Source of the DNA: a virus
Direction: 5' to 3' (one strand)
IMG/VR virus record: IMGVR_UViG_3300005527_000319
Location: 1 to 22,760 of that record
DNA length: 22,760 bases
A program made the position numbers and the translations under genes. Below are positions 1-20,253 of this stretch, piece after piece. The notes below the pieces were generated by a model that saw nothing but the letters and a program-made list of their open reading frames with translations, made no database searches and was not told the DNA's origin. Within the stretch, counting starts at the first letter, position 1, and each line of letters begins with the position of its first letter.

Positions 1-1784
1 ATTTTCTTAGCGTATCTTGTCATAATACCTTTGATAGGTGTGAAGTTGAATGGGTTGTACATTGTAGGTGTTAACTGAAGAGGTACGTATGGTGCGTAGA
101 TGTATCCAGTGTCTAACAATGATGTTCCTTTGTGACCCAACAAGATTGTGTTTGGTGGGAAGTAAGGATCACGATAAACTTGGTAACGTCCAGCAAGAGT
201 ACCAACTCTTTCAATACCCATATTGTATTGGTCTTGCTCAGGAGACGCGTTAGATACGTGGAAGTATTCTAAATCGTCAAAGATAGCTGAAACTTCAGAA
301 GAAACAACAATCCAGTTAGCACCACCTCTAAGTGTAGACTTGTGGATTTGTGCAGACAACTGGTTGATTGCTGTAATCAACGTTTGGTTCCAGTCTTTCT
401 GTGTGTAAGAAGTAGTCAAAGACAATCTTCTCCATCCATTGTAATCCCAACGTAGGTTCCATGCAGCACCTTTACGAAGGTCTCTTAGGATTTCACGGTC
501 AATTTCCGCAGCAACTTGTTCTGAAAGAAGAGCAGTAAGCTCAGCTTCAGCATCAATGTTATGGAATGCCGCAACGTCTTGAGCAAGCTCTGGAGACCAT
601 TGTGCTCTTAATTTTCTTTCAGTAACTGATACTGTAACAGACTCAAGGTCAAAAGAAACCTCTCCGATTTTTTCTTCAAACTCTAGTTCTTCGTAACGTC
701 TCCAAACAGCAGTAAATGATGTTGCAGATGTGATAGCAGAAAGAGTAGAACCAGTGTACCCATCAAGTGAAGTGTCACCACAAGATGCACAAGCAGGACA
801 AGAAAGATCTACTTCAAGAATGATACAACCATTAGCGTTACAGATATTGTTAAAAGAACCACCATTTCCATCAACTGGGAATGTAGTTTGATATTGACTA
901 CCATAGTCAACAATTCCTTTACCATATTTTTGAGTTACAACTCTAAATAAAAGTGGTGATGCACCAACTGTAGGAACTGGACATACGTTAGCAGCATCAA
1001 ATCCTAATCCTGTATTAGTAAGGATTTTAAGGTCAGAAAGGAAAGATTCTGTATCAATTTCATTTCCGTCAGGTCCGATAAGTTTACCAGCACCTGGGAT
1101 GTTACTCCACCCACAAAGTTTGATAAGAACTTTTCTTGTGTTACCAACATAAGCAGCGTCGTCATTGTTAGCATCAACTAAGTCACCATTTGACCATTTT
1201 ACAACAGTAGCCGCTGCCGTGATAGCAGAAAAACGACCTTTAGAATAATCAAATAGACCAGCAGGATCCAATCCTGGCTCAGCTCCTTCGTAGAATAAAT
1301 CATAAAGATTTTTTGAGAAAGGTGCGTTAGCGTTAGGTGCTGTATCAGCTCCTGGGTAACCTTGACCCGGTACGTTATAACCACCATTAACCGCTTCAGG
1401 AGAACCAATTGGTGGATAGTGAACACTACCAGCTTCATTTGGGTTATATCCTTGGATACGAGGTACAAAGTAGAACAATTTACCAATTGGTAAGTTCATA
1501 GCTTGTACTGATACGATATCGTTAGCTAACAATTTAGAGAAAACTCTTCTAACGATAGGGAAAACAACCGTTTCAAAAGCTCCGTTTGAACCTTCTGAAG
1601 TTGCTTCGTTAATTAGGTGAGATGCTTGGTTCTCATATAACTGAGCCACGTTCTCTTTTAGATGACCTTTAAGTCCATCAAGGAATCCTAATTTATCCCA
1701 TTTGTTAATTGTATCTTCTTTGATAACTTTAAGGTGCTTAAGACCGATGTTACCAACAAGACCAGATTCTAATAATGCTCCCAT
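1..1784 (-). CDS. 23: Major capsid protein, T4 gp23-like (3' end cut by window edge)
   Basis: Main shell protein of the T4-type head. 594 codons are visible from the ATG at 1784 and the frame stays open to the left edge, so only a short C-terminus is missing. Family-like blocks read from the translation: an N-terminal helical part with LYENQASHLINEA (residues 49-61), FPIVRRVF, a central VWRRYEELEFEEKIGEVSF stretch, TERKLRAQWSPELAQD, and near the end PFNFTPIKGIMTRYAKK. I-N-E60/A61 fits the gp21 cleavage rule (I/L-x-E) and lies close to the T4 site after E65, so the first ~60 residues are probably a removed propeptide. A cysteine cluster (C315, C320, C329, C332, C335) is unusual for the family. 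The start follows an A-rich leader with no Shine-Dalgarno. It lies downstream of the scaffold gene, as in T4. Confidence 0.95.
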   Translation of the reverse strand, partial: MGALLESGLVGNIGLKHLKVIKEDTINKWDKLGFLDGLKGHLKENVAQLYENQASHLINEATSEGSNGAFETVVFPIVRRVFSKLLANDIVSVQAMNLPIGKLFYFVPRIQGYNPNEAGSVHYPPIGSPEAVNGGYNVPGQGYPGADTAPNANAPFSKNLYDLFYEGAEPGLDPAGLFDYSKGRFSAITAAATVVKWSNGDLVDANNDDAAYVGNTRKVLIKLCGWSNIPGAGKLIGPDGNEIDTESFLSDLKILTNTGLGFDAANVCPVPTVGASPLLFRVVTQKYGKGIVDYGSQYQTTFPVDGNGGSFNNICNANGCIILEVDLSCPACASCGDTSLDGYTGSTLSAITSATSFTAVWRRYEELEFEEKIGEVSFDLESVTVSVTERKLRAQWSPELAQDVAAFHNIDAEAELTALLSEQVAAEIDREILRDLRKGAAWNLRWDYNGWRRLSLTTSYTQKDWNQTLITAINQLSAQIHKSTLRGGANWIVVSSEVSAIFDDLEYFHVSNASPEQDQYNMGIERVGTLAGRYQVYRDPYFPPNTILLGHKGTSLLDTGYIYAPYVPLQLTPTMYNPFNFTPIKGIMTRYAKK

Positions 1785-1815
1785 TTTCTTTTTTTTTAAT
1801 TTATTTTATGTATTT

Positions 1816-1823
1816 AATAAATA
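1816..1823 (-). promoter_or_regulatory. Recurrent TATTTATT element upstream of the capsid gene
   Basis: The coding strand reads TATTTATT here, 31 nt before the gp23 ATG and 19 nt after the scaffold stop codon. The same octamer, or one differing by one or two bases, precedes several other late genes in the window. It may be a -10-like late promoter or a leader element; function is inferred from position and recurrence only. Confidence 0.4.
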
Positions 1824-1842
1824 CTATGTACTTTTAAAAAGT

Positions 1843-3327
1843 TTATTTTATTTTTCCCATCAAGTCTTTCATTCTCAAAAATTGTGGATTTTCATACGTT
1901 TTAGACTCAATTAAGTTAGCAGCCGAACCAGTACTTGGTGTTTTAGAGACTGTTCTCTCAAATGATTCTGTGATTGTATTTTCCGTAGATTTTGGAGATC
2001 CTAATTCATCCTTGATAGATTTGTAAAGATTTTTTGATTCTTTTAAAGTATCAACATTGTCAAATCTTCTAAGAATATTAATCTTTTCTTGTTTTGTTGT
2101 TGAATGTTCTGTAAACAATCTAGTTGCATAAGCAAGATTTGAGTTAAATATGGCAACCTCATTTAATTTAGTTCTGAATAGATCAAGAGCTTTTCTGTAT
2201 TCTTCATTTTTTGCTCTCAAAACTTCTAATTCTTCAGTACCTTCTTTTCTTAAATGTCTTGGTGCCGCTTTTGGTTTTGGTAAACCTTCTCTACCCCAAT
2301 ACTTGCCATTAGCCAATGTTCTTGACGCTTCTTTAGTTTCAGTTTTTTTACCTTCAACTTTTTTCATTTTACCATCAAGGTTAGCACCTTCTTTGTATTC
2401 AAATTTTGCTTTACCAGTACCCATAGTTTTGTTAGCAGATTTTTTAACTGTTTTAAATCCACCACCCATATTAGGTTTCTTGTCATATTTGAATTTAGAT
2501 GCGTTACCCATTCCGATACCTTTAGGTTTAATTGATTTTTTAGATTCGTAAATTGACTCTTCTACGCCGATTTCGTCTTCTAACTCAGTATCGTCTAACT
2601 CAAGTTCAAAGATAATTTCATCCTCTTCTTCATCATCAAAAGAAAATTCATCATCCTCTTCTTCATCATCAAAAGAAAATTCATCTTCCTCTTCTTCATC
2701 ATCAAAAGAAAATTCATCTTCATCTTTCTCTTCGTCTTTAGAAAAGTAAAAATCAAAATCATCAACTTCTCTTGAATAGAGTTCTTCCAATTCTTCATCG
2801 GAACCCATTTCAGAAAAATCATTCACTTCAGAAAAATCATCCATTTCAGATTCACCTAATTGTATCAGATATTCGGTATCATTTTCTGTATCTGATAGAT
2901 GTATCATTTTGTCATCTTTTTTTACAATAACACCATCATTATCTCCCATTGCTTTAAACACAGTTAAAACTTCTTCGTCTGAAGCTCCGGTTAAATCAAT
3001 TGTGTCATCTTCTGTATCAGTATCAAATTCCATTTCAAAATCATCTTCTGTGTCATCCATGCCAAGCATGTCATCTTCTTCTTCGGAATCATCAACATCT
3101 AAATTATCAGTATCAATATCTTCCACATCTGTATCAACATCCGTGTCCTCAATATCAACCTCATCGTCTTCAACCTCATCTTGTTCTTTAAGAGATTCTT
3201 TTACTAATGAACTGATTTCTTCCTTCATTGTTGAAGAAAGTATTCCTTCTGCATTCTTGTTAAGAGACTCCTCCAGATTTGAAATCTGAAGTAACGCCTC
3301 TTCAATAACATTTTTATTTTTTGTCAT
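1843..3327 (-). CDS. 22: Prohead core scaffold protein, T4 gp22-like
   Basis: Internal scaffold on which the capsid shell assembles, later degraded by the gp21 protease. 494 aa from the ATG at 3327, much longer than T4 gp22 (269 aa). Layout: short N-terminal helical segment (1-50); extremely acidic region (about 50-255) that contains a small ordered-looking block (LTGASDEEVLTVFKAMGDND, 112-131, followed by VIVKKDD and EYLIQL); tandem EFSFDDEEE repeats (about 205-236); a basic Gly/Lys-rich linker (262-335); and a C-terminal helical domain with KLNEVAIFNSNLAYATRLF (387-405) and ILRRFDNVDTLKESKNLYKS. The last domain is the part that resembles T4-like gp22. Position directly upstream of gp23 supports the call. 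A TTG 21 nt further upstream is open in frame but overlaps the TATTTATT element, so ATG is preferred. Confidence 0.88.
   Translation of the reverse strand: MTKNKNVIEEALLQISNLEESLNKNAEGILSSTMKEEISSLVKESLKEQDEVEDDEVDIEDTDVDTDVEDIDTDNLDVDDSEEEDDMLGMDDTEDDFEMEFDTDTEDDTIDLTGASDEEVLTVFKAMGDNDGVIVKKDDKMIHLSDTENDTEYLIQLGESEMDDFSEVNDFSEMGSDEELEELYSREVDDFDFYFSKDEEKDEDEFSFDDEEEEDEFSFDDEEEDDEFSFDDEEEDEIIFELELDDTELEDEIGVEESIYESKKSIKPKGIGMGNASKFKYDKKPNMGGGFKTVKKSANKTMGTGKAKFEYKEGANLDGKMKKVEGKKTETKEASRTLANGKYWGREGLPKPKAAPRHLRKEGTEELEVLRAKNEEYRKALDLFRTKLNEVAIFNSNLAYATRLFTEHSTTKQEKINILRRFDNVDTLKESKNLYKSIKDELGSPKSTENTITESFERTVSKTPSTGSAANLIESKTYENPQFLRMKDLMGKIK
2617..2712 (-). repeat. Tandem 30-33 bp coding repeat in the scaffold acidic region
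   Basis: Three adjacent units of 30, 33 and 33 bp (2617-2646, 2647-2679, 2680-2712), nearly identical, with a degenerate fourth unit to about 2745. They encode the E-F-S-F-D-D-E-E-E repeats. The units keep the reading frame, which fits in-frame expansion by slippage or unequal recombination. Confidence 0.85.
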
Positions 3328-3346
3328 TATTTTGTTTTCTATTAAC

Positions 3347-3354
3347 AATAAATA
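3347..3354 (-). promoter_or_regulatory. TATTTATT element upstream of scaffold gene
   Basis: The coding strand reads TAGTATTTATTGTTAATAG, with the octamer 19 nt before the ATG at 3327. It lies just downstream of the intrinsic terminator at 3399-3422, so this gap looks like a terminator-promoter junction between transcription units. Confidence 0.45.
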
Positions 3355-3398
3355 CTAACAAAAATGAAAAAATTCGTTTTGCGTGATATAAAACAAAA

Positions 3399-3422
3399 AA
3401 GGATGAACATTTGTCCATCCTT
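3399..3422 (-). terminator. Intrinsic terminator after the 71-aa gene
   Basis: Inverted repeat AAGGATGAACA / TGTCCATCCTT (3399-3409 with 3412-3422, one A-C mismatch, tiny loop). On the minus strand it is followed directly by TTTTTTGTTTTAT, a good U-tract. It lies 25 nt past the stop of the 71-aa gene and before the scaffold gene, so it would end transcripts coming through the protease gene. Confidence 0.75.
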
Positions 3423-3447
3423 CAAGTATTTTTAAATAAATTGTATT

Positions 3448-3663
3448 TTATTCAATTACCTCATCAATTTTACTTTCTGTAATTGAAGTGATTCTCCAAT
3501 CCATTGTGTAGTTTTCATAAATCTTGGTAACCTTTGCCTCTACATCTGTTGGTGTATATCCCAAAACTAATTTTTCTTCTTTAACTTTTTTAACTCTACC
3601 GGATTCACTATCAAGTAAATCTGAAGTAATTTTTGCTACAAAATATTTTTCTCCTTGTTCCAT
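3448..3663 (-). CDS. Small protein, resembles DUF4494 of Bacteroidota
   Basis: 71 aa, ATG start. The pattern of an N-terminal strand (YFVAKI), then RVKKVKEEKLVLGYTPTDVEAK, then a W-x-I-x-x-I segment and a C-terminal SKIDEVIE recalls DUF4494, a small family seen mainly in Bacteroidota and their phages. That match is from memory and not verified. No catalytic motif is visible. It sits between protease and scaffold, 35 nt downstream of the protease start-side neighbour, and is the last gene before a strong terminator. Function unknown; it could be a head-assembly accessory factor or simply a passenger. The leader carries TATAATTAATTAAAATAAAA, which might contain its own promoter. Confidence 0.75.
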   Translation of the reverse strand: MEQGEKYFVAKITSDLLDSESGRVKKVKEEKLVLGYTPTDVEAKVTKIYENYTMDWRITSITESKIDEVIE

Positions 3664-3698
3664 AATTTTTATTTTAATTAATTATAGAACAACTATTT

Positions 3699-4436
3699 TT
3701 ATTTATCAAGAAAAGCGGATAATTTATCCATTAATTTTTTTGATTTATCAATTGCTGAAGCATCATCCATTTCACTACTTCTTGTTGATTGCATTTTCTT
3801 TTCCTCATCAAGATTCTCCTCATAATTCATTCTATCATCTTTATTTAAGAAAAGATATGCACCAGGAGTTGAGGGAGATGATACAAGGTCAAAACAAATT
3901 AATTCAAAATCTTTTTGTACCTCATTTGTTTCACCAACTTTTTTAAGTGAACCAACTCCACGAGATGAAATACCCAAAGTAACACCTTGTCTTAAGTAGT
4001 TTGCTGCCAAATCACCTTTTGTGGAACAAACTCCCCTTTCGTGAAATCCTGGACTTGTAAGCAATTTTAATTTACCCATAAGAACATTTCCTTCCCACCA
4101 TACTTCGGTTATAATGTGTGATACCCGGTCAAGATCAATAAGAGAAGATTCTGGGTGATTTAATTCAGAAAGAGAAGTTCCTCTTTCAATCATCTTTTTA
4201 TAATTTTCAGCTTCTCTTTTTAAAATATCTTCAGGATATACTCTACCGTTTCTATTTGGCGTATTGTATTTTTGTAATACAGCGTAGAACTCAAATGGTT
4301 TTGAGTGATCAAGGAAACTTTTATTTTCCATTATATAACTATTTTGAGTTACTTTAGGGTTGATATATCCGGCATCGTACTCAATTAGAATACCCTTTCC
4401 AGTTTCACTTGGTGATAAAATTTTATAATTACTCAT
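3699..4436 (-). CDS. 21: Prohead maturation protease, T4 gp21-like (peptidase S80)
   Basis: Serine protease inside the prohead that cleaves scaffold and capsid proteins before DNA packaging. 245 aa, ATG start. Motifs: YAVLQKYNTPNRNGRVYP (51-68), the His block ELNHPESSLIDLDRVSH with H94, the Ser block GVTLGISSRGVGSL with S157/S158, and an acidic block FDLVSSPSTPGAY with D183. The family mechanism uses a His/Ser pair, and their order and spacing here fit. The C-terminal ~45 residues are charged and likely a self-cleaved propeptide. Position (portal, then protease, then scaffold, then capsid) is as in T4. A TATTTATT element lies 13 nt upstream of the start. Confidence 0.93.
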   Translation of the reverse strand: MSNYKILSPSETGKGILIEYDAGYINPKVTQNSYIMENKSFLDHSKPFEFYAVLQKYNTPNRNGRVYPEDILKREAENYKKMIERGTSLSELNHPESSLIDLDRVSHIITEVWWEGNVLMGKLKLLTSPGFHERGVCSTKGDLAANYLRQGVTLGISSRGVGSLKKVGETNEVQKDFELICFDLVSSPSTPGAYLFLNKDDRMNYEENLDEEKKMQSTRSSEMDDASAIDKSKKLMDKLSAFLDK

Positions 4437-4449
4437 CTTAAGTTTTAAT

Positions 4450-4457
4450 AATAAATA
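4450..4457 (-). promoter_or_regulatory. TATTTATT element upstream of protease gene
   Basis: The coding strand reads TAATATTTATTATTAAAAC, with the octamer 13 nt before the protease ATG and immediately after the stop codon of the 156-aa gene. If this is a -10 element, the mRNA leader would be only a few nucleotides. Confidence 0.4.
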
Positions 4458-4928
4458 TTAATCAATCTGAGTTTTTATTTTTTCCGGTTTAATATTTCCT
4501 TTTTTTGTTAAATAGAATTTAAAAAATTTGTTATGTGTGAAAACCTCTGAGTATATATCTTTGGATAATTTTTTAAGTGTTTTTTTAAGAATTGGTGATT
4601 TAAAGTCAATAGGATTTTCTAGGTTGTATAGATTTATCTCAAGATTCATAAATGATTTTTTCTTTAATTGTATACCACTTGTTCTTAGGTCTAAATCAAC
4701 TATAAATTTTTCATCAAATAAATTTTTATCAATATTATTAAACACAGAATGTTTTATATCTCTTGTCATATTAAGGACAACTCTTTCCCAGTTTAGACTT
4801 TCTTTTTTTGGTTCTACCCAGGTTTGTAAATTTAAATAAAGGGATTTGAATTCTTTTGAGTCTACAGTACCATAACTGACTTTACAAGTTCTAAACCCAT
4901 TTATTTTGGAAGTTTTTCCTTTTTTCAT
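4458..4928 (-). CDS. Conserved-looking phage protein of unknown function, 156 aa
   Basis: ATG start, basic and lysine-rich, predicted mixed alpha/beta. It begins MKKGKTSKINGFRTCK and contains NLQTWVEPKKESLNWERVV, then a FIVDLDLRTSGIQ strand pair and MNLEINLY, with a helical C-terminal part (LKKTLKKLSKDIYSEVF). I recognise no family or active site. It lies between the antisense bS21 gene and the protease, in the region where T4 keeps small prohead core genes 67 and 68; similarity to those is not visible. It is divergent from bS21 with a 79-bp gap. Its stop codon abuts the TATTTATT element of the protease gene. Confidence 0.8.
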   Translation of the reverse strand: MKKGKTSKINGFRTCKVSYGTVDSKEFKSLYLNLQTWVEPKKESLNWERVVLNMTRDIKHSVFNNIDKNLFDEKFIVDLDLRTSGIQLKKKSFMNLEINLYNLENPIDFKSPILKKTLKKLSKDIYSEVFTHNKFFKFYLTKKGNIKPEKIKTQID

Positions 4929-5007
4929 AAAACTTTTTCATAATTATTTAGTTTATTTTTTAGAAGTTTATGTATTTTTGGGATATATATCAATATAATA
5001 TCAAAAT
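4929..5007. promoter_or_regulatory. Divergent promoter region between the 156-aa gene and bS21
   Basis: 79 bp of very AT-rich DNA between two divergent starts. On the plus strand TATTTTTG (4973-4980) matches the Bacteroidota -7 consensus TAnnTTTG and would suit a host-read promoter for bS21, with a start point a few bases downstream and a leader of roughly 20 nt. A convincing -33 TTTG is missing; only TTTA-type sequence is present around 4951. No Shine-Dalgarno precedes bS21. Confidence 0.35.
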
Positions 5008-5202
5008 ATGTTAAAAGTAGAAGTTAAAAGAGGTGATATAGAAAGGGCGTTAAAAGAACTTAAAAGTAAGGTGATTAAAACAAGACAAAATTCCCACCTA
5101 AATGATAGACGGGAATTTAAGAAAAAATCTGTTGTAAAACGTAGCCAGGTTAAAAAAGCAATCTATATTCAGAAACTAAAAATTACTCCTAAAGATTTGT
5201 AA
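5008..5202 (+). CDS. rpsU: Ribosomal protein bS21 homologue (phage-encoded)
   Basis: Small-subunit ribosomal protein that sits on the 30S platform next to the 3' end of 16S rRNA. 64 aa, highly basic, ATG start. The N-terminal IERALKELKSKV (11-22) fits the first bS21 helix, DRREFKKKSVVKR (33-45) the middle arginine/lysine segment, and SQVKKAIYIQKLK (46-58) closely resembles the C-terminal part of flavobacterial bS21. The aromatic residue that contacts the anti-Shine-Dalgarno tail in the flavobacterial ribosome would correspond to Y53. It is the only plus-strand gene in the window. It is convergent with the 239-aa gene (14-bp overlap at the 3' ends) and lies antisense within the late cluster. 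Viral bS21 genes are known in other phages. Early expression to modify host ribosomes is the likely role, but this is inference. Confidence 0.9.
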   Translation: MLKVEVKRGDIERALKELKSKVIKTRQNSHLNDRREFKKKSVVKRSQVKKAIYIQKLKITPKDL

Positions 5203-5908
5203 ATAAATCTTTTAATTTGTAATAATTTACTCTATTGTAGGTTTCGTTATTTAATTTATTAATTGTCTGATTAATTCTTGATGTTACTTCAGTATCATCG
5301 TTTGTTGATTTTAAATCATTTAATTTATCAAGAGTACTCTCTTTTAATACTTCATATTTAACCAATAATTTATCATTGTCTTCTGACAAGATTTTTTTAA
5401 CTTCTTCTCTTTCAGATTCGTTAATACTAGATAAATAATCTGAAATTGTCTTATTAGCAACATCAACAATTTTACTTACTGGTAATTTTACCATATCAGT
5501 GTATTCTTCTTTTTTTGATTTTGATAAAGATTCTAAAATAAACTTTTTACTTTTAATTCTTGATTCAAGATTTAAGTTTTTTGTGTAGACTAGATTGTCA
5601 ATATTTTCATATATGTTTTTAGTCTCTATTTCAGATAACCATAAATCTAATTCATTAATAGAGTTTGAACTTAAATTTTTAATACTTTCCTTTAAAGTGG
5701 TTATTGATTCGTTAAGGAATTCATTTGCAAAATCATCACTATAACCCTTACTTGAAGATAGTTCGTCGTACATATAATACATTTCTTTTAATGTCTTGTT
5801 TTTTAATACAAGTTCACTAAAAATAAAAATGTCTTTTTTAAATGATTCCTTAAGGTATGAATCTGTTAGACATTTCTCTATTTTACTTTTTATAAGTCCA
5901 AATTTCAT
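5189..5908 (-). CDS. Helical protein of unknown function downstream of portal, 239 aa
   Basis: ATG start. Nearly all helix-forming, rich in Lys, Glu, Ser and Leu, with probable coiled-coil stretches (for example SRIKSKKFILESLSKSKKEE and SEREEVKKILSEDNDKLLVK). No signal peptide, membrane segment or catalytic motif. It follows the portal gene by 24 nt, with a TATTTATT element in the gap, and its stop overlaps the 3' end of the convergent bS21 gene. In T4 the equivalent place holds prohead core genes 67/68, so a core or scaffold-accessory role is possible. No sequence similarity is visible and I do not assign one. Confidence 0.8.
   Translation of the reverse strand: MKFGLIKSKIEKCLTDSYLKESFKKDIFIFSELVLKNKTLKEMYYMYDELSSSKGYSDDFANEFLNESITTLKESIKNLSSNSINELDLWLSEIETKNIYENIDNLVYTKNLNLESRIKSKKFILESLSKSKKEEYTDMVKLPVSKIVDVANKTISDYLSSINESEREEVKKILSEDNDKLLVKYEVLKESTLDKLNDLKSTNDDTEVTSRINQTINKLNNETYNRVNYYKLKDLFTNL
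5191..5212. terminator. Convergent hairpin shared by bS21 and the 239-aa gene
   Basis: Perfect 8-bp inverted repeat AAAGATTT / AAATCTTT (5191-5198, 5205-5212) around a 6-nt loop that contains the bS21 stop. It overlaps the last codons of both convergent genes. The stem is AT-rich and the following T-tract is short (TTTTAATTTG on the plus strand), so termination would be weak. It may act in both directions. Confidence 0.45.
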
Positions 5909-5922
5909 TTTAATTGTTTTTT

Positions 5923-5930
5923 AATAAATA
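5923..5930 (-). promoter_or_regulatory. TATTTATT element upstream of the 239-aa gene
   Basis: The coding strand reads ATATATTTATTAAAAAAC, with the octamer 14 nt before the ATG at 5908, in the 24-nt gap after the portal stop. Confidence 0.4.
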
Positions 5931-5932
5931 TA

Positions 5933-7726
5933 TTACTTATCTAAAATCTTCATAAGTTCTTTTTCTATTTCACCTAGAGAGTTATTACCAATTAATATTT
6001 CATTATCAATATTTTCTAATAATAGATTTTCCATCTTTGCCTTACTTTCTGGTAGACCACCTTCTGGTCCTCCCGGAGGTGGTCCTGGTGGTGGTGGAGG
6101 ACCTCCTAAGTCACCACCCATATCCATTCCGCCACCTTCGGCCGGTGCTGCGGCTGTTGAGTCGGTTACCCCACTTACAGTTTTATACAAATTGTCAATG
6201 TTATCAAATAATCCGGTATGTGTAATAATTGTTGGTGTGTTTACAAGTTCTGCCGCAACCGCTTTCTCCATTCTTTGTCTTTGGATATCTAATTTGATAT
6301 CCTCGTCTGACCAACCAAATATATGTTTCTTAGCCCAAGTCGCCGATGTTGGTGCGATTGTTCCTTGGATATCTGTAACCAAATCTTTATAAAGTAATAC
6401 TTTTTCTTTCCAAACCTCAACCATAAGAAGATCAGCTTGTTTTGACGGGTTTGTAAGACCTAATGTAAAGTTTGTAAGTTCGTCCTCAAATCCTAAAAGA
6501 AATAAATGAATAATTGCAATTTTGTTTAATTCAGATAGCATATTTTTCTGAATTTTATTAATTGTTCTTGCAAAACGAATATCAAGTAGAGATAAATTTT
6601 TACCATCACCAACTGGTTCTTCAAAACCAAGGTAAGCTTTTGGTACACGAATAGCGGTTACAAGTTTCTTTTGGATGTACTCAATATCCGCAATTTCAGA
6701 AAGGTTCTGAGCACCTGCTAATGTCTCAATTGGCATTGTTTGTGTTGCATCACGAACCGGAATAAAATAATCTTGATCCACCGCCATTTGATTAAATCGT
6801 AAATCAACATTACCTGTTTTATTATCTACAATTTGATCCCTTTTAAATTTATTGGCAACACGTTGTACGTATGGTTCAACATCTTTATCGTCCATATTTC
6901 CAACGAATACTTTGAATACCCTTCTTTCCGGGGCTCTTGATGTACGATAAATTAACATCGCATCTTCAGCAAGTACTAATTGTTTCCAAATTCTTCTTGC
7001 CTTTTCAAGCATAGAAGTTCCATATGGTAATTTTCTATCGTCACCTAGAAGTCTAAAGTGTGCTACCTCCCAAGTGTTAAATTCCATATTTTTTTCTTTC
7101 CAATTAAACCTAACACCCTTCTCGTCTGGTTTTACTTCAGTGTTAGGTCTTTTTGGGGACATACCCTTTTCTAACCTTTCAATTTCAATATTCGGTAACT
7201 GAACACAACCAATGATTCCTTTTTCTGGATCTAATTTTAAGTAAACAAAATTATCACCATACTTACAAGTGTTTCTAATCCACATCTGTAAGTTTGTGTT
7301 GATATCTAATGTATTATTAAATAAATCGGCTAAAATTCCTTTTATTCTTTTTGATTCTGAATATATTTGAAGTATATGTCCGTTTTCATCTGGTGTTGTT
7401 GACTCTTCAGCATAAATGTCAAGTGCTGTTGATATCTCCGGAGTAAACTCCATTGATTCATAATCATAAAATGCTGCAAGTCTTGTTGGTTCATAATATA
7501 TTGCTTGAGTATATAAATTACTTTCAATCTTTTGCCATTGATTTGCTAAATATAAAGTTTGTTGAGATTGTAGTAACTCTTTTTCGTATTCATTTCTATC
7601 TTTAGTTCTTAAAAGTTCTTTCTTATCAAACTTATACGTTGGGACATCTTGACCCAATAAAGAGTTGGGACCAAAGGCCTGGGTCAGTCGTTGCCAAACA
7701 GTTAGTTCATTATTTTTATTTTCCAT
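5933..7726 (-). CDS. 20: Portal vertex protein, T4 gp20-like
   Basis: Dodecameric portal at one head vertex: nucleates head assembly and forms the DNA entry channel with which terminase docks. 597 aa, ATG start, somewhat longer than T4 gp20 (524 aa). Family-like blocks: YYEPTRLAAFYDYESMEFTP (78-97), EISTALDIYAEEST (98-111), CKYGDNFVYLKL, a central APERRVFKVFVGN, NLSEIADIEYIQKKLVTAIR and PKAYLGFEEPVGDGKNLSL. The extra length includes a Gly/Pro-rich low-complexity segment (about 533-562, including GGPPPPPGPPPGGPEGG) followed by a charged C-terminal helix. It lies downstream of terminase, separated by one small gene. Confidence 0.95.
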   Translation of the reverse strand: MENKNNELTVWQRLTQAFGPNSLLGQDVPTYKFDKKELLRTKDRNEYEKELLQSQQTLYLANQWQKIESNLYTQAIYYEPTRLAAFYDYESMEFTPEISTALDIYAEESTTPDENGHILQIYSESKRIKGILADLFNNTLDINTNLQMWIRNTCKYGDNFVYLKLDPEKGIIGCVQLPNIEIERLEKGMSPKRPNTEVKPDEKGVRFNWKEKNMEFNTWEVAHFRLLGDDRKLPYGTSMLEKARRIWKQLVLAEDAMLIYRTSRAPERRVFKVFVGNMDDKDVEPYVQRVANKFKRDQIVDNKTGNVDLRFNQMAVDQDYFIPVRDATQTMPIETLAGAQNLSEIADIEYIQKKLVTAIRVPKAYLGFEEPVGDGKNLSLLDIRFARTINKIQKNMLSELNKIAIIHLFLLGFEDELTNFTLGLTNPSKQADLLMVEVWKEKVLLYKDLVTDIQGTIAPTSATWAKKHIFGWSDEDIKLDIQRQRMEKAVAAELVNTPTIITHTGLFDNIDNLYKTVSGVTDSTAAAPAEGGGMDMGGDLGGPPPPPGPPPGGPEGGLPESKAKMENLLLENIDNEILIGNNSLGEIEKELMKILDK

Positions 7727-7754
7727 ATTTAAAATTTAAATATTTTTTTATAAT

Positions 7755-7762
7755 ATTAAATA
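7755..7762 (-). promoter_or_regulatory. Possible variant of the late element upstream of portal
   Basis: The coding strand reads TATTTAAT here, 28 nt before the portal ATG and overlapping the last codons of the 84-aa gene. It departs from TATTTATT at the end. A second run, TATTTAAATT, lies closer to the start. Weak call. Confidence 0.22.
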
Positions 7763-7764
7763 TT

Positions 7765-8019
7765 TTAACACCAAACCAAGACATAATTATCTTGTGTTGT
7801 TATATAATCGTAATCTTGTGTTAGAATATAACAAGTTGTTATTTCTTGAGTGGTTGTAGTTGTTGTTACCGGTGTTCCGGGACCACCTTCTGGTAATGGT
7901 CTATACTTATACTGAAAAGTATTTGGAAATTTTTTAACCGAATAAATAGGTTGACCAGTCACAGTAAGTGTTGATCCACCAATTAATCTGCCAGATGTTT
8001 TTCTACTTTCTAATCCCAT
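7765..8019 (-). CDS. Small unknown protein between terminase and portal, 84 aa
   Basis: ATG start only 4 nt after the terminase stop codon, so translation is probably coupled. The N-terminal half is basic (ESRKTSGRLIGGSTLTV, then FQYKYRPLPEGGPG). The second half has a six-threonine run followed by CYILTQDYDYITTQDNYVLVWC, in which a TQDxYxxx-like unit occurs twice. No family recognised. In T4 this place holds sheath and tube genes 18 and 19, but this protein is far too short to be either. The tight spacing and an uninterrupted frame with ATG support a real gene. Confidence 0.65.
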   Translation of the reverse strand: MGLESRKTSGRLIGGSTLTVTGQPIYSVKKFPNTFQYKYRPLPEGGPGTPVTTTTTTQEITTCYILTQDYDYITTQDNYVLVWC

Positions 8020-8023
8020 TTTT

Positions 8024-9799
8024 TTATCTTGTCATTCCACCAAATAACCAGCCGTATTTCATATACTCCTCTCTACTTGGCCCACTATTATTTCTATATC
8101 TATCATTCATTGTATTCATATTTGGAAGTACCGGGTCAAAATGAAGTTGTCTACTAACTGAATCATTATTTGACACAGTCCAAGATTCAATCATCATTTT
8201 TGTTTTTTCAACAACCTTTTCAAGTTTTTGGAATGACGATTCCCCAACATAAATTGCCATTGATATCCCCATAATTAAATCATCGTGTTGTCCTTTCTGG
8301 TGATCTGGTCTACCATTTACATAAATAAATGTGTTCATCTCATTGTACAAACGAGAACTTCTAATTTTAAACTTGTGTCTTACATACTCCTCAAACGCTG
8401 CAATAATCTGAACCCGTTTATTGTTAAAATTAATCCCGGGGATTTTATCCAAGGCTTTTGCGTTATACGACCAGATATTTGTCGTATCAACCCCATCAAT
8501 ATATAAGTTTTTATAACCAAGTTCTTGCATTTTTCTAACTGTTGTAATTCCCATACCTCCGGTAATATCCACAACACAAAAAGCATTGTACATTAATCCC
8601 CATTTGTATGCTATTTCAGCAAGTGCATCCGGTGGTATTTTCCCAACATATTCAAGAACTTGTTCTCTTTCATCAAAGTCAATAATTTGAATTGATGAAA
8701 AGTCTTCACTATCACCTCTTGATACATCAACACCCATAATGTATTTATGTCCTTGTTCTGGTTCTTTCCACATCCAAAGAGAATTTCCCATCATTTTATT
8801 TGGTGCATCATAGATTGTATTTGATTTTAGATATTCTAGTTGTTTTGCGTCAAATACGTTATCTCCAGATCCTAAGAATTCACAATTTAACTCTTGGTTA
8901 ATTTTTCTTTTATCGTATTTTAATTTTTTAACCATTTTCTCATACCAGGATGAGCATGGTTTATATCCTTTAAGGAAATATTCTTTTATGTGGTCATAAT
9001 CTCTTTCGTATGGGTCAGAATCCCCAAATGAAATATTTCCAGAATGGTCTCTTTCTTCTTTGTGTAATAAATAATCAACCATATCATCTGTTGGGACAAG
9101 ATATAAGTCTTTGGAATATCTTGGGTCTTTCCACCAAAACATTTCAGAGATTTTAAAGTTATTTATACCTTTTGTTGATTGATCGTAGATTTCATAATAA
9201 ATTGGGTCATATCCATTTGGTGTTGATACAACAATTACTTTACCACCGGTAGAAAGTGACGCCATACAAGCTGCCCAGAAATCATTGTCAGCTTCAATGA
9301 AGGCTGCTTCATCAAAAACAAGTATTGTTGGTGTGTAACCCCTTAGTGCATCTCGTGATGTTGCAACAGCTTTAACTTCACAACCATTTGTTAACTTATA
9401 ATGTCTTTGTGAATTTTTGTCGGCTGAAAATCCGGTACCAACCCACTTTGGCCATTGGTCAACAAAGGCTCTAATCTTGTTTGCCATTTCCATTGACGTA
9501 TCAAGTTTGTTTGCAATAATTAGAATTTTTTCTGGTTTTTCTTTTTTAGCAAACACAAGTCTTTTTGATACCCAAGCGGCGGTTACCGTTGATACACCAG
9601 CCTGGCGATACTTGAGGGCTATATTTTCCTCATAATCTTCATAATCTTTTAGTAGAGATACTTGATCTGGAAATAACTCTAATGGAACATACTTTGAGAC
9701 TGTATTATCATATGTTTGTAAATAAGTTCTTAAAGCATATGGTGTGTCTCTCATACACTTCACATACTCAAGCATTATTTGTTCCTTTGTCAAACTCAT
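8024..9799 (-). CDS. 17: Terminase large subunit, T4 gp17-like
   Basis: Packaging motor ATPase and headful nuclease. 591 aa, ATG start. ATPase part: Walker A-like segment K63-Y-R-Q-A-G-V-S-T71, Walker B TILVFDE with D163/E164, and coupling motif VSTPNG (191-196). Nuclease part: acidic residues in GVDVSRGDSEDFSS (D358), VVDITGGMG (D411) and GQHDDLIMG (D506/D507), matching the three metal-binding acids of T4 gp17 in order and spacing. The canonical Walker A lysine is replaced by V69; K63 may substitute, as in phage lambda gpA. It begins a transcription unit: a terminator and a TATTTATA element lie just upstream. Confidence 0.95.
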   Translation of the reverse strand: MSLTKEQIMLEYVKCMRDTPYALRTYLQTYDNTVSKYVPLELFPDQVSLLKDYEDYEENIALKYRQAGVSTVTAAWVSKRLVFAKKEKPEKILIIANKLDTSMEMANKIRAFVDQWPKWVGTGFSADKNSQRHYKLTNGCEVKAVATSRDALRGYTPTILVFDEAAFIEADNDFWAACMASLSTGGKVIVVSTPNGYDPIYYEIYDQSTKGINNFKISEMFWWKDPRYSKDLYLVPTDDMVDYLLHKEERDHSGNISFGDSDPYERDYDHIKEYFLKGYKPCSSWYEKMVKKLKYDKRKINQELNCEFLGSGDNVFDAKQLEYLKSNTIYDAPNKMMGNSLWMWKEPEQGHKYIMGVDVSRGDSEDFSSIQIIDFDEREQVLEYVGKIPPDALAEIAYKWGLMYNAFCVVDITGGMGITTVRKMQELGYKNLYIDGVDTTNIWSYNAKALDKIPGINFNNKRVQIIAAFEEYVRHKFKIRSSRLYNEMNTFIYVNGRPDHQKGQHDDLIMGISMAIYVGESSFQKLEKVVEKTKMMIESWTVSNNDSVSRQLHFDPVLPNMNTMNDRYRNNSGPSREEYMKYGWLFGGMTR

Positions 9800-9812
9800 A
9801 AAAGTATTTTTA

Positions 9813-9820
9813 TATAAATA
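9813..9820 (-). promoter_or_regulatory. TATTTATA element upstream of terminase
   Basis: The coding strand reads GATATTTATATAAAAATAC, with the octamer 13 nt before the terminase ATG and directly after the terminator hairpin at 9823-9854. On the opposite strand the same bases read TATAAATA, the T4 late-promoter octamer, but pointing away from the gene. Confidence 0.45.
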
Positions 9821-9822
9821 TC

Positions 9823-9854
9823 AAACCCCCTTGTTATTTTAAACAAAGGGGTTT
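9823..9854 (-). terminator. Intrinsic terminator between the fibre block and the head module
   Basis: Inverted repeat AAACCCCCTTGTT / AACAAAGGGGTTT (9823-9835, 9842-9854), 13 bp with one mismatch and a 6-nt loop. On the minus strand the GC-rich base of the stem runs into TTTGATATTTATAT; on the plus strand GGGGTTT runs into ATGTTATTTTT. It lies 24 nt after the stop of the SHAEG fibre and would insulate terminase from fibre transcription. It may work in both directions. Confidence 0.75.
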
Positions 9855-9878
9855 ATGTTATTTTTAAAATTTATAATA

Positions 9879-11783
9879 TCACCTAACAAAGTATAATGAT
9901 ATTTCATCATTAATATCTTTCATTTTAATCCATCTACTAGGGATTTGTTGGTTTTTTAGAACTCTTATTTGACCAAGTAAACCAACAACATTCCATTCAG
10001 GTCTTTTGGCTCTAGGTGTGTAAGTAATAGTTGGGTCAAAATTTGGTGTTATCTTTGGTCTTTTCCCCGTAATTGTTTTATGAGTTGTAACTCCACTCAC
10101 AACATTATCAACAACGTCATAAGAATAATCCTCCATTACTATTTTACCCCAGATATCTTTTTCATATTTACCAACCCATTCATCTGCTGTACCATCTTCA
10201 TTGTTACCAACAAGTGTAGGTGTTGATGATATGACACCAATTGCGTTATTAGCGTCTTGACAAACTTTTATTTTATCCCCGTCTAATTCTACAACGGTGC
10301 CAAAAGGAAGTGCTTCACCTGTTACGGATTCAAAATATTCAGCGTAATCGGCACCAGTATTATAACTGGCACCAGCGCCATAAACATTACCACTTGTGTC
10401 AACTCTAAATGCGTTTGACCTTGCGGAATTTGATGTGCCTTTACCTATAATAAATAATTGATTTGGGTTTGTTGTGTCATTCCACGTACCAGAAACGTGT
10501 TGATACCCTTCGTATGCAATTGTCCCATTACCTTCAGCGTGTGACCCAATACTTAAACTTAATGTTGTGTTACCTTCAGCGTGTGAATAGGTGCCCCCCT
10601 GAAATAAAGTTTGGTATGGTAGACTTTTTCCCCACATAAAGGCTCCAGGGTTATAAATAGAAAGTGGAACTCCGGCACTAACAAATAACCCCGGTGTTGC
10701 TAATGTGACATTTGTTTTTGTTGTAAACGTTGCTGTAGTTACGGTGTGTATTGACCCATCTAAAATAACTGTAGTTCCACTAGGGAAATAAGCCGTTAAA
10801 TCCCCAAAAGAAGCTGGTAAACCAACAACACTACTACTTGTACCGTCTGTTTCCCAACCAGGTAACCCAACTCTATTGTTATAGCCTTCAGCGTGTGACG
10901 AGTAACCAATTGTTATATTACCAACACCCTCAACGTGAGAAACGTAACCTAAACTTAAGTTGTCATCACCTTCTGCGTGTGATCCAACACCTAACGCAAC
11001 ATTATTAAAAAAGTAACCACCTTCAACGTGAGCCCCAAAACCTAGGGATTGGGATGTATTTTGGTTTACCCCTTGATATGGGTACGTTGTTGCTAATGAG
11101 GTTGGGTCATAAATTGAAAGTGGTAGCCCTCCGCCTGCATTTAATGTTGTATCAGTTAATTGTATGTTTGTTAAAGTGGTGAATGTTGAGGCACTTACAG
11201 TGTAGAACTGACCATATAAAACAACTATAGTTCCGGATGGGAAATTGCTAGATAAATCACCGAAACCGCTAGGTAATTGAATTAGGCCATTAAACGTACC
11301 ATTAGTCGTCCAAGCAGGTAAACCTGTAACACCATAAGCCCCTTCAGTGTGTGAAGAACCACCATATGTTCTTGTTTGATACCCTTCTGCGTGAGAATAC
11401 TCACCGTTAGATGTTGTATCAATACCTTCAGCATGGGAAGTGAGACCTTTTGACGTTGTTTGATAACCTTCGGCGTGAGAATAACTCCCACTAGCTACAA
11501 CGTTATAACCAAAAGCCATTGATAAAAAATCATCAGCTATAGACCCATTTGATTGTATGCTATCAAAAAAAGTTATTGGTGAACAACCAACAACATTACA
11601 AACGTGTAGTTCGTTAATTGGACTTCCTGATGTGTTCCCAGTAAATGAAGATACAACACCTGTTAAATTACTACCATCACCATAATATGTAACAGCAGAA
11701 AATGTTGTAGCACTTACAGCACCATTAATTATCTGTTCTGTTAGTGTATTGTCTAAATTATCTATTATATATTTTACGCTCAT
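9879..11783 (-). CDS. Tail fibre/spike with YadA-like SHAEG repeats and C-terminal peptidase G2 chaperone domain
   Basis: 634 aa, ATG start. The N-terminal 50 residues include SATTFSAVTYYGDGSNLTG, a short module resembling the start of the 459-aa fibre in this window. Residues 102-418 carry S-H-A/V/T-E-G repeats at an exact 14-residue spacing within runs (102, 116, 130, 144; 268, 282, 296; 400, 414), the pattern of trimeric YadA-head-like beta-rolls in phage fibres. The runs are interrupted by two similar ~80-residue inserts (about 155-235 and 307-390). After YQHVSGTWN (427-435) the end (about 470-634) has GADYAEYFE, IGVISSTPTLVGN and EWVGKY, the signature of the peptidase G2 intramolecular chaperone seen in phi29 gp12-type appendages, which aids trimer folding and then cuts itself off. 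Likely a receptor-binding virion protein. Its gene starts 6 nt after the 138-aa gene. Confidence 0.88.
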   Translation of the reverse strand: MSVKYIIDNLDNTLTEQIINGAVSATTFSAVTYYGDGSNLTGVVSSFTGNTSGSPINELHVCNVVGCSPITFFDSIQSNGSIADDFLSMAFGYNVVASGSYSHAEGYQTTSKGLTSHAEGIDTTSNGEYSHAEGYQTRTYGGSSHTEGAYGVTGLPAWTTNGTFNGLIQLPSGFGDLSSNFPSGTIVVLYGQFYTVSASTFTTLTNIQLTDTTLNAGGGLPLSIYDPTSLATTYPYQGVNQNTSQSLGFGAHVEGGYFFNNVALGVGSHAEGDDNLSLGYVSHVEGVGNITIGYSSHAEGYNNRVGLPGWETDGTSSSVVGLPASFGDLTAYFPSGTTVILDGSIHTVTTATFTTKTNVTLATPGLFVSAGVPLSIYNPGAFMWGKSLPYQTLFQGGTYSHAEGNTTLSLSIGSHAEGNGTIAYEGYQHVSGTWNDTTNPNQLFIIGKGTSNSARSNAFRVDTSGNVYGAGASYNTGADYAEYFESVTGEALPFGTVVELDGDKIKVCQDANNAIGVISSTPTLVGNNEDGTADEWVGKYEKDIWGKIVMEDYSYDVVDNVVSGVTTHKTITGKRPKITPNFDPTITYTPRAKRPEWNVVGLLGQIRVLKNQQIPSRWIKMKDINDEISLYFVR

Positions 11784-12216: not shown

Positions 12217-15200
12217 TTAAGAGTTAATATTTGTTATGTTTAATACGTCACTACCATCATAATAGCTTAATCTAATAGAATTACTTGAGTTTTCAAATAC
12301 ATTACAATTGTAGTTGTCATACACAAAAGTTGCTGATGTAAAATCATAACCGCTAACAATACAGTTTATAATATTTTTTTGGAAGTTTGACCCTATATTT
12401 GTCGCACTTTGGAAGGCGTTACTAATGTTATTATAATAAAAATTATTACCTATAATTTCATTGTTATAAAACCCATACCCAATTACATTATTACTAAAGT
12501 TGTTTCCGGGTGTTGGGGACGTGAACATAGAGTTCCAAGTTGTGTTTGTTGGTGAAACTGAACTATTAAATGATCCCTCAACAGCAACATTATATATACC
12601 ACCACCATTGTCGTCTCTTTTAATTTCAAGTACTCCAGGAACTATAACATCAATTGTTGATGGACTATAATCTGGTCTTTCAAATGTGATTGTAGGTCCA
12701 GATGTTGGGAAGACCAATTCTCTAGTATATTTAAATCCACCGCCATTTCCTCCTTGAGTCCATTTGGTAAATACAACTTTATGATATTCATTACTAACTG
12801 TATCATACATAATAAGTTCTCTACCAATTATATTATTACCAACATTACCATTTAAAGCATCTCTAAAATTATCATACGTTCTAGTTGTAATATCTGAAAA
12901 GTCATAGAAACCATATCCATCACCAAATCTATTATTACTAAAATCACTCAAAATAGAATTACTATCCATTGAGGACAATCTATTATTCCCAAAATAATTA
13001 CCAATAAAGTTATTGGTGACATCGTAATTAAAAATATTACCATTAACACCATTGCCAAGTTTATTGGTATCAAAATAACTTACTTTGTTGTTATTGAATC
13101 CATTACCTATGGTATTTTTTAAGAATTCATTACCACAAATGTTATTATTAAATTGATTTCCAATTTCGTTATTTTGGAATTCGTAGTATACAATATTCTC
13201 TCTAAAATCATTACCAATATCATTTCTATAGAAAGAACTACTTATACTAGGTTCCCCAATAAAGTTATCATAGAAACTATCCCCAATTAAATTATTGTAG
13301 AATGGTGAGTATATTGTATTTCCACCACTTGTTGGTCCGTCAAAACCAAAATAGTTACCTATTTTATTTGATCTAAATTCACTATATATTGTGTTTTCAG
13401 TTCCGGAGCCACCATTACCAAAATAGTGTCCTATTTGGTTGTCCTCAAAATCATTATCAATAATGTTAAATGCCATAAAATTACCAACGTTATTTGAAGT
13501 AAACACACCATTAATTGGATTTGGGAATCCACCAATACCCGCGTTTCCAACAAAGTAATCACCAAAATTATTTAGTATTGATAATGTATTAAATGAATTA
13601 AACCAAAATGAATTTCCTATTTTATTATTTGTAAAATCGGAATCTATTAGATTATATATGATATCATCACCGACAACATTGTATTGGAAACCGGTATTTA
13701 TAACATTTCCACCATTTCCACCTGGATTTGTTGCACCAGGATAATTTGTGTCATTACCAAAGTAATTTCCAATTTTGTTAAATTTAAAGTCGTTGAAAAT
13801 TGTGTTTGTTACTGGTGGTGTGGAATCTGAATTAAAATTACCGAAGTAATCGCCGATTATATTTGACTCAAAATTATTACCAATTGAGTTGTAATAAAAA
13901 TAATTTTTAATTGTGTTATTTTCAAAATTATCCCCAATAACATTATCACGGAATTCATTACCAATAACGTTGTTATACATAAATTGACCAATTAGGTTGT
14001 CTTGGAATTTATCATTAATAACGTTACCCTGTTCGTTACCCCCACCATAACCAAAATCACTACCGATTATGTTGTTTTGGAAAAGGTTACCAATTTTATT
14101 ATACCCAAATCTTTCACCACTATTAGGCTCGGTATAAATAGAATTCCATTCAGTATCACTAGGGCTTACAGAACTATTCCAACCACCTTCAGAAAAACTA
14201 TTATAAATACCACCATTGTTACCTCTAGTTATTCCAACTCCAGCAACACCTGGTACAATAACATCAATATCATTAGTGTAATTTCTTTTTGTAAATAATA
14301 TTGTAGACCCAATTGTGTTACCGGCAGAATCAATTTCAGTTCTTTCGTATTGGAACCCACCTCCATTATTATTTTGTGTCCATTGTGTAAATTTAATTAT
14401 AAAGTATTGTGATGTAGAAATAATTCTCATAACAAATTCTTTACCTAATAATCTATTACCTAAATTGCCGTTACCTACAATATTATTAAAGACATCATAT
14501 GTTCTTGTTGAGACCGTAGATAAATCATACCACCCAAATAGAGTTTGATTTTCTGGTACATTACTTTGGAAATAAGTTTGTATATCATTATAAATAAAAT
14601 CATTACTAATTTTATTATTATAGAAATAATAATCTGTAGAGTTATTAAAAAAGTTATCGTTTACAATATTGTTATTAAACCCATTACCGATATTGTTTAC
14701 TCTAAAATTATATCCGGTTTGGTTATTATTAAACCCGTTTAAAATTGTGTTTCCAATAAATTCACCATTTATTTGATTATTTTGGTAATTAGTACCAACT
14801 CTATTGTTTTGAAACGTTTGTCTAATAGTATTATTTAAAAAGTCATTACTTATATAATTTCTATAAAACTCAAAATTATCTAAGTTTCCAAAATCACCTA
14901 TTATATTATCTTGAAATCTATATAAAATATCGTTTTCGTAAAAATCAGAATAAATAGTATTATTACTGAAATTATCCCCAATTATATTATTCCTAAAATT
15001 GGTACTATTTTCACCTAATATTTTGTTATTGGCAAATTGGTTCCCAACTTTAGAGCTCTCCATATTAGAGTTTATTAAATTATTATTAAAATAATAACCA
15101 AAAGTACATTCATCTATATCATTGGTTGACACATTTTCATAACAATAATCACCCCAAGTATTATTTTGATTGTCAGTACCAAAAGTATTATTATAGCAGT

Positions 15201-17028: not shown

Positions 17029-17032
17029 AGTC

Positions 17033-18412: not shown

Positions 18413-18442
18413 TTAATCTTTTCCCTTTCCAAGATTTATAAC

Positions 18443-18450
18443 AATAAATA
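18443..18450 (-). promoter_or_regulatory. TATTTATT element upstream of the 459-aa fibre gene
   Basis: The coding strand reads ACATATATTTATTGTTATAAATC, with the octamer 30 nt before the ATG at 18412. It lies just downstream of the LamG relic. A second copy, TATTTATA, occurs at 18500-18507, right after the previous LamG stop. Confidence 0.4.
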
Positions 18451-18456
18451 TATGTG

Positions 18457-18498
18457 TTAATTAAATCTGGATCTTAATGTATTATAATTTTGTAAAAT
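18457..18498 (-). pseudogene. Relic of a LamG gene 3' end
   Basis: In the gap after the stop of the neighbouring LamG gene, one frame reads ILQNYNTLRSRFN then TAA. This matches the conserved ending of the intact LamG genes (LQNYNTLKTRFG, LQNYNTLKRRFG). An in-frame TAA lies directly before it and there is no start, so it is only a 13-codon leftover. It indicates that a LamG gene was deleted or replaced here. Confidence 0.7.
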
Positions 18499-18510
18499 TT
18501 ATAAATACAA

Positions 18511-20248: not shown

Positions 20249-20253
20249 AATTT

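Follow-up and report, generated by a model that had tools for sequence, protein, structure and literature searches.

The bS21 gene at positions 5008–5202 (+) of a viral DNA of 22,760 nucleotides (IMG/VR record IMGVR_UViG_3300005527_000319; this whole stretch is hereafter called the window) lies opposite to the head-assembly genes around it. We give an even chance to the proposal that this gene is an independently promoted unit outside the host's bS21 feedback, and that in this lineage late transcription would end inside the gene. The opposite-strand placement, which an earlier sequence-only reading had offered as its own inference, has been known since its publication in 2022 (PMC9723584). What the sequences newly suggest is a leader without a Shine-Dalgarno (SD) sequence, a promoter-box swap among relatives, and a terminator-like hairpin on the antisense strand.

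The bS21 gene and its placement

The product of the 5008–5202 frame, which has an ATG start and 64 residues, matched the Ribosomal_S21 profile PF01165 over profile positions 1–52 of 55 (30.2 bits against a cut-off of 27; E 3.6e-07). Two PDB sequences, 7jil_z and 9i5v_9, were tied as matches at E 1.4e-08, the former being from the F. johnsoniae ribosome (PMC9723584). Because 222 loci yielded 113 distinct homologues of the gene, with a median dN/dS of 0.19 (255 usable of 400 sampled pairs; 57 equal-length genes), the frame is judged to be a real gene and not a chance ORF. The window protein has tyrosine at the position matching F. johnsoniae Tyr54, and by pattern match an aromatic residue occupied this position in all 101 distinct phage bS21 proteins (Y in 90, F in 6 and H in 5), as Chen et al. 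likewise found in the phage bS21 examined there (PMC9723584). A search of 50,697 phage records with bS21 returned only three matches, all to large uncultured phages, at 48–53% identity. According to McNutt et al., bS21 is by far the commonest ribosomal protein carried by phages (PMC9976891), and a precedent for ribosome assembly, that of Pelagibacter phage HTVC008M bS21 in E. coli, is cited in PMC9723584.

Genes were called with a simple script of our own instead of a standard gene-calling program, and all substantial genes besides bS21 fell on the minus strand. In order of position these were a gene at the MCP position (3–1784), assigned by position and homology only and running off the contig; an acidic scaffold-like gene at the scaffold position (1843–3348), whose product has acidic FSFDDEEEE repeats; a 71-aa gene (3448–3663) with a match to the first half of DUF4494 and with 69–100% identity kept in relatives; the prohead protease (Peptidase_S77; 3699–4436); orfA (4458–4928), the strongly conserved 156-aa divergent neighbour of bS21; orfB (5189–5908), its convergent neighbour, with a predicted all-helical model; the Portal_T4 portal protein (5933–7726); orfC, a gene call between portal and TerL; and the terminase large subunit TerL (8024–9799). 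The protease, portal and TerL were assigned by profile matches. The PF01165 match and the gene calls confirm the claim that bS21 is a plus-strand gene amid minus-strand head genes. The accompanying claim that every other gene is minus-strand and structural holds for the strand of the substantial genes called and fails for structure, orfA, orfB, orfC and the DUF4494 gene being without known function.

In the window, 79 nt separate the divergent orfA and bS21, and bS21 and orfB overlap at their 3′ ends by 14 nt (5189–5202); the overlap at the stops was 4 nt in 93 of the 113 distinct genes. For orfA, the best structure model had a pLDDT of 82.9 and the other four 54–65; Foldseek gave no match at E ≤ 0.001 (best VIA Z 7.2), and no fold is named. 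A profile search of PDB sequences with orfA found nothing credible, and the 50,697 phage records gave no match to it at E ≤ 0.01. At the orfA start and upstream of it, in 4913–4944, are two TATGAAAAA-like motifs, conserved at variable spacing and mostly out of frame. A terminator-like hairpin lies upstream of the scaffold gene (3398–3423), and such sites were found there in 58 of 74 distinct relatives versus 0.0 in shuffles. Farther along, 12217–16233 encodes a 1338-aa asparagine-rich protein with short repeats of the NNxIGNxFxxN kind, and 16303–22414 holds six minus-strand genes of 233–249 aa, alike by eye and mostly in tandem; these are perhaps surface proteins of the ConA/laminin-G lectin type, a Pfam type that matched in a relative. 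A tRNA scan and an Rfam search at gathering scores found no match in the whole window.

Chen et al. described, in 47 phage genomes with predicted Bacteroidetes hosts, bS21 genes in five clades (a–e), located between two hypothetical genes on the strand opposite to terminase, portal, protease and MCP (PMC9723584). Among the best 80 of 267 confirmed IMG/VR stretches, we found bS21 opposite to orfB in all 80; orfA was present in 78 of them, and in 77 of these it too lay opposite to bS21. On the contig of the exception, L069, the orfA, protease and MCP genes are inverted beside bS21–orfB, a rearrangement or a misassembly. A second, partly overlapping set of 157 loci comprised 142 with antisense bS21, five without bS21 and 10 that were uninformative; with 142 of 147 informative loci antisense, the orientation is conserved. 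Two further locus sets were the best 80 of 578 and the best 80 of 590. In three loci without bS21 (L283, L284 and L288), the orfB and orfA matches were 82–88 nt apart, and in L281 and L287 a frame of ~150 aa on the orfA strand fills the bS21 site (about 4938–5385).

Promoter boxes and the bS21 leader

We called genes in two relatives, of 290,887 bp (337 genes) and 154,296 bp (204 genes), the latter with a bS21 protein identical to that of the window. Of the intergenic starts, 87 of 175 in the larger genome and 49 of 108 in the smaller one had the motif TATTTAT before them, against expectations of 10 and 7 and other-strand counts of 26 and 20, respectively; among coding controls, the motif was present in 3 of 274 for the larger genome and 2 of 172 for the smaller. 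In the larger genome, 85 of 107 occurrences began 11–30 nt before the ATG. The families listed behind this box (the first 25 of 35 and of 65) included terminase, protease, sheath, tail tube, baseplate, holin and endolysin; they come from 89 of 91 listed proteins of the 290,887-bp relative only, one very long and one very short protein being omitted and genes crossing 20-kb piece borders excluded. The set is not purely late, because it also holds a DnaB-type helicase and a primase/helicase. Among 21 hand-picked starts of Flavobacterium phage immuto, TATTTAT was found before 10, including those of terminase, portal and sheath, and was absent before MCP, protease and lysozyme. From this gene association we name TATTTAT a putative late-type box.

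A second box, TAnnTTTG, is the -7 box of sigma-A promoters in Flavobacterium psychrophilum (PMC9723704). In the two relatives it preceded 44 proteins, and after the two bS21 were left out, the named families among those listed for the remaining 42 (the first 25 of 30) were methyltransferases, RNA ligase, endonucleases/nucleases, phosphoesterase, peptidases and others; no structural family was among the families listed, most of the proteins being unnamed. The flavobacterial sigma-A promoter presumably also has an upstream TTTG/TTG element, which was seen too in the sites aligned here.

Around bS21, late-type boxes lie at 5924–5930 (-) for orfB and at 4451–4457 (-) for the protease gene, and TATTTAT was found in 96 of 96 and 90 of 92 distinct upstream regions of these genes, respectively. 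The corresponding counts in distinct 60-nt upstream regions were 60 of 68 for scaffold, 32 of 35 for TerL, 40 of 66 for portal, 23 of 45 for orfC and 32 of 81 for MCP; the DUF4494 gene and orfA, which also lacks the box in the window, had none in 96 regions each. TAnnTTTG occurred in 10 of 66 portal regions (4.2 in shuffles), in 2 of 96 DUF4494 gene regions and in none of those of the six other neighbour genes. A sigma-70 scan of positions 1700–10000 was uninformative (43 promoter-like sites versus 43.1 in shuffles), and TATATAT was not convincing as a variant late box (8 versus 4.2 expected).

The window bS21 leader has no TATTTAT box. It carries TATTTTTG (4973–4980, +), which the TAnnTTTG motif and the relatives mark as the -7 box of a candidate bS21 promoter. 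The match to an upstream TTTG element is weak, no clear TTTG being present at -33; GTTTATTTT (4951–4959) lies at about the right distance for a TTTG/TTG element but has no G. Among 94 distinct 60-nt bS21 leaders, TAnnTTTG was present in 63 (4.6 in shuffles) and TATTTAT in 25 (12.1 in shuffles). In 41 aligned regions, conservation was above 90% in the TA and TTT columns and 70–90% at the G and one n, the other n being variable; by eye, the G is lost in L281 and L287, which lack bS21. These observations suggest that bS21 in the window's lineage belongs to the TAnnTTTG class and not to the TATTTAT class.

A conserved block, TATATATCAATATAA, follows at 4984–4998 (+) in the alignment of relatives. 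By eye, a related clade has in its place TATATTTATATCAA, which contains TATTTAT, so that the late-type box sits where the window's clade has ATATATCAA. As a genome-wide element, ATATATCAA was rejected: it gave five matches in four of six records, four of them beside bS21 and one elsewhere, with a search pattern that misses a form present in two of the six. On an orfA tree of 90 rows, TATTTAT preceded bS21 in 25, namely a clade of 22 (support 100/98), a sister pair elsewhere on the tree and a single row, and supported branches force at least two changes of box type. Both motifs matched in 11 of these 25 rows, and in 10 of the 11 the TAnnTTTG match was part of GTTTATTTTTG near orfA, at a site different from that of the bS21 box. 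Neither box preceded bS21 in 17 of the 90 rows, which count each region once, while tallies by intergenic region (99) may count two regions twice. Because bS21 of the late-box clade has TATTTAT in the same opposite-strand placement, its promoter type appears to have changed while its orientation stayed.

Pairing energies of leaders were calculated against an assumed 16-nt 16S tail. All 30 distinct host rpsU leaders had an SD pairing at -19.6 to -24.7 kcal/mol; these came from 80 loci, mostly labelled Flavobacterium and found with one Flavobacterium-type query. The 86 distinct phage bS21 leaders ranged from -8.6 to +1.1 kcal/mol (window, -4.2), and none had an extended SD (pairing below -13 kcal/mol). 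Apparent strong SDs in two phage genes lay inside an open upstream frame. In F. johnsoniae, bS21 is autoregulated, the extended SD of rpsU being used best by ribosomes that lack bS21, and McNutt et al. propose that this autoregulation would help the host to recover (PMC9976891). Because the phage leader lacks an extended SD while the protein keeps the aromatic residue, we infer that ordinary ribosomes can produce phage bS21, which should depress the host loop instead of obeying it; the proposal of McNutt et al. is the converse.

A terminator-like hairpin antisense to bS21

On the antisense strand of the window bS21, positions 5088–5118 (-) form a terminator-like hairpin with a 13-pair stem and an interrupted T-rich tail. 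Its energy was -13.3 kcal/mol (z -4.31), which was reached in none of 200 shuffles, and none of 60 synonymous shuffles was equally stable; 8.3 kb of sequence contain five terminator-like sites, this one included, against 2.6 in shuffles. Since a polymerase coming from orfB meets this hairpin first, it could stop orfB and late transcripts ahead of the bS21 start. Conservation of the site itself among relatives did not go beyond shuffles. A codon listing had led us to regard the hairpin as merely unconserved, a view revised when relatives were found to carry hairpins at other sites.

In a strict scan, 26 of the 113 distinct bS21 genes had an antisense hairpin followed by T residues, at several positions within the gene, whereas synonymous codon shuffles gave means of 4.6 (within gene) and 2.8 (pooled), with a maximum of 9 in 100 each; the sense strands of the 113 genes had no such site. 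A separate scan of relatives found hairpins in 28 of 116 antisense regions versus 1.3 in shuffles. By energy, 39 of the 113 related, and thus not independent, genes were significant at p ≤ 0.05 on the antisense strand, with about 6 expected. Random samples of 50 controls gave 2 (orfA), 3 (DUF4494 gene), 5 (protease) and 7 (orfB) on the antisense strand and 6, 2, 2 and 6, respectively, on the sense strand. An excess over the null was seen on the bS21 sense strand as well (27 of 113), at a mean z of -2.93 but a mean energy of only -1.8 kcal/mol; the top 12 sense cases are the antisense hairpin read from the other side, for which reason the hairpin might serve the sense mRNA. As 74 of the 113 genes have no significant antisense hairpin, this feature is lineage-dependent.

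At the most frequent site, AAAATCTGTC-N7-GACAGATTTT, 67% of cells are paired, versus 37–48% when the structure is slid. Its pairing and covariation score exceeded all 500 letter shuffles; its counts of changed pairs and of pair types were reached in 105 and 106 of the 500, and slid structures had a nearly equal covariation score and more two-sided changes. The alignment covered 70 of the 113 distinct genes, omitting the late-box clade and deep rows, and the structures tested were taken from the aligned rows. We found covariation not convincing and do not claim it; the weight of the hairpin evidence rests on the synonymous-codon null. On a quick orfA tree, the hairpin label changes at least 16 times, of which at least 6 are forced by supported branches. 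A tie between hairpin and box type (32 of 61 genes with the sigma-A box, 1 of 31 with the late box and 6 of 21 with neither) was not supported by independent tree pairs. In the two relatives, hairpins were found on 6 of 44 sides of tight convergent pairs, including the bS21 pair of the 154,296-bp genome, versus 5 of 231 co-directional controls.

Interpretation and comparison with known systems

In the reading that we favour, T4-like Bacteroidota phages share a conserved viral bS21, of which the window gene is an example: one gene, flipped by itself and forming its own transcription unit, from which host RNA polymerase could make mRNA from early in infection. Ribosomes replete with bS21, and hence SD-blind, would translate this mRNA, so that the feedback holding host rpsU in check would not act on it. 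The phage protein would enter ribosomes and fill bS21-free subunits, which should lower rpsU translation; in F. johnsoniae, the aromatic residue of bS21 stacks on the anti-SD (PMC9976891). Late orfB transcripts would end inside bS21, with antisense RNA covering roughly 5080–5202 and sparing promoter and start. The placement would then be for the most part a matter of compact convergent gene order with a terminator embedded in it, and not an off switch.

Such a switch was the proposal of the sequence-only reading: bS21 is made early and then silenced by antisense RNA over the whole gene from a late portal-to-protease transcript. The conserved orientation, the sigma-A type box in the window's lineage and the late-type boxes before orfB (96/96) and portal (40/66 distinct regions) agree with it, some antisense RNA seems unavoidable given the bS21–orfB overlap, and the 74 genes without a significant hairpin offer no obstacle. 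We nevertheless consider the switch improbable. A transcript from orfB would meet the 5088–5118 hairpin before the start codon, against antisense RNA over the whole gene, and 26 of the 113 genes have such a hairpin by the strict scan; protease and scaffold have TATTTAT boxes of their own, so that no portal-to-protease transcript is needed; and the related clade has the same orientation with a late box before bS21. Of the proposed timing, 'early' gains indirect support, because the leader has a sigma-A box and no TATTTAT and the families of this box class include no structural ones; early bS21 is plausible, and whole-gene silencing is not supported. Published co-transcription of bS21 with late genes (PMC9723584) speaks against the switch, though not decisively, as strand-specific libraries are unmentioned in the text, which uses neither 'strand-specific' nor 'promoter'. 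Those metatranscriptomes, in which the region is not one operon and bS21 expression follows the neighbour gene on the opposite strand, underlie the view of Chen et al. that bS21 is made with the capsid genes and favours late phage mRNAs (PMC9723584). TATTTAT before bS21 in one clade of 22 rows fits that view, which we hold possible but somewhat doubtful for the window's lineage, with its sigma-A box and no TATTTAT; if the reads were unstranded, bS21 coverage could include antisense read-through from the convergent neighbour.

The placement might also have no regulatory meaning, bS21 being one of many reversed single genes. The two relatives have 33 strand islands of one gene among 541 called genes, 10 of the 33 (both bS21 included) with a sigma-A box versus 34 of 508 other genes; 22 of their 41 convergent pairs are less than 15 nt apart, and intact loci without bS21 exist. 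We rate this, too, as a possibility on the unlikely side, in view of the near-invariant placement, the stop overlap, 4 nt long in 93 of 113 genes, and the antisense hairpins in excess of the synonymous null. Finally, the conserved intergenic block could belong to orfA, with TAnnTTTG before bS21 incidental. GTTTATTTT, which reads AAAATAAAC towards orfA (4951–4959, -), is tied to the orfA start, lying 17–22 nt from its ATG in 94 of 97 distinct regions; its AATAAAC core persists before orfA where bS21 is absent, and TAnnTTTG is directed towards orfA in 22 of the 97 regions versus 9.4 in shuffles. It is directed towards bS21, however, in 68 of the 97 versus 7.9, its TA and TTT columns are those conserved above 90% in 41 regions, and its G is the letter lost by eye in L281/L287, which makes this reading, in our judgement, quite unlikely. 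Against the favoured reading itself stand the TAnnTTTG before portal (10/66), the 17 of 90 rows with neither box, the published late co-transcription (PMC9723584), the DnaB-type helicase in the TATTTAT set, and the many unnamed TAnnTTTG proteins.

A bolder form of the favoured reading, which we put forward tentatively and think less probable than not, makes phage bS21 a feedback-proof substitute that shuts off host bS21 synthesis. With a host-type promoter and an SD-less mRNA, it would be immune to SD-based bS21 autoregulation; once bS21-free 30S subunits were saturated, host bS21 would be off and ribosomes would convert to the viral protein. The antisense terminator embedded in its codons would keep converging late transcription from erasing bS21, and lineages would have changed its timing by repeatedly swapping host-type and late boxes. 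In Bacteroidota, bS21 helps to decide whether ribosomes see SD sequences (PMC9976891). If phage bS21 stands outside the host loop, the question of why phages carry it becomes a concrete F. johnsoniae test, in which its expression should lower an rpsU'-gfp reporter and leave SD-less reporters unaffected. The two box classes offer a sequence-level handle on bS21 timing in uncultured phages, and an antisense terminator within a coding gene would, if selected, represent two overlapping layers of information.

Several known systems invite comparison. T4-type late promoters (TATAAATA, gp55-dependent; PMC1524935) likewise place a short AT-rich box before head, tail and lysis genes; theirs lies at -13 to -6 of the transcription start, and the box here is a coding-strand TATTTAT. 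The noncontiguous operon, or excludon (PMC7154746), shares an antisense gene among genes of one direction, but the 5088–5118 hairpin and the separate late-type boxes argue against one spanning transcript. Host rpsU (McNutt et al. 2023, PMC9976891) encodes a homologous protein with the anti-SD-stacking aromatic residue, and differs in the extended SD needed for autoregulation, which the phage leaders lack. A literature search, with most subscription papers and all preprints outside it, turned up nothing on SD sequences, promoters or terminators for phage bS21 genes. In the phages of Chen et al. (PMC9723584), too, bS21 is flanked by two hypothetical genes and lies on the strand opposite to the nearby TerL, portal, protease and MCP genes; the genomes are likewise large (one relative analysed here has 290 kb), and position 54 again has an aromatic residue. 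Their text, in which the word 'promoter' does not occur, reads expression as late; to it the present analysis adds the two box classes, the SD-less leader and the embedded antisense terminator-like hairpin.
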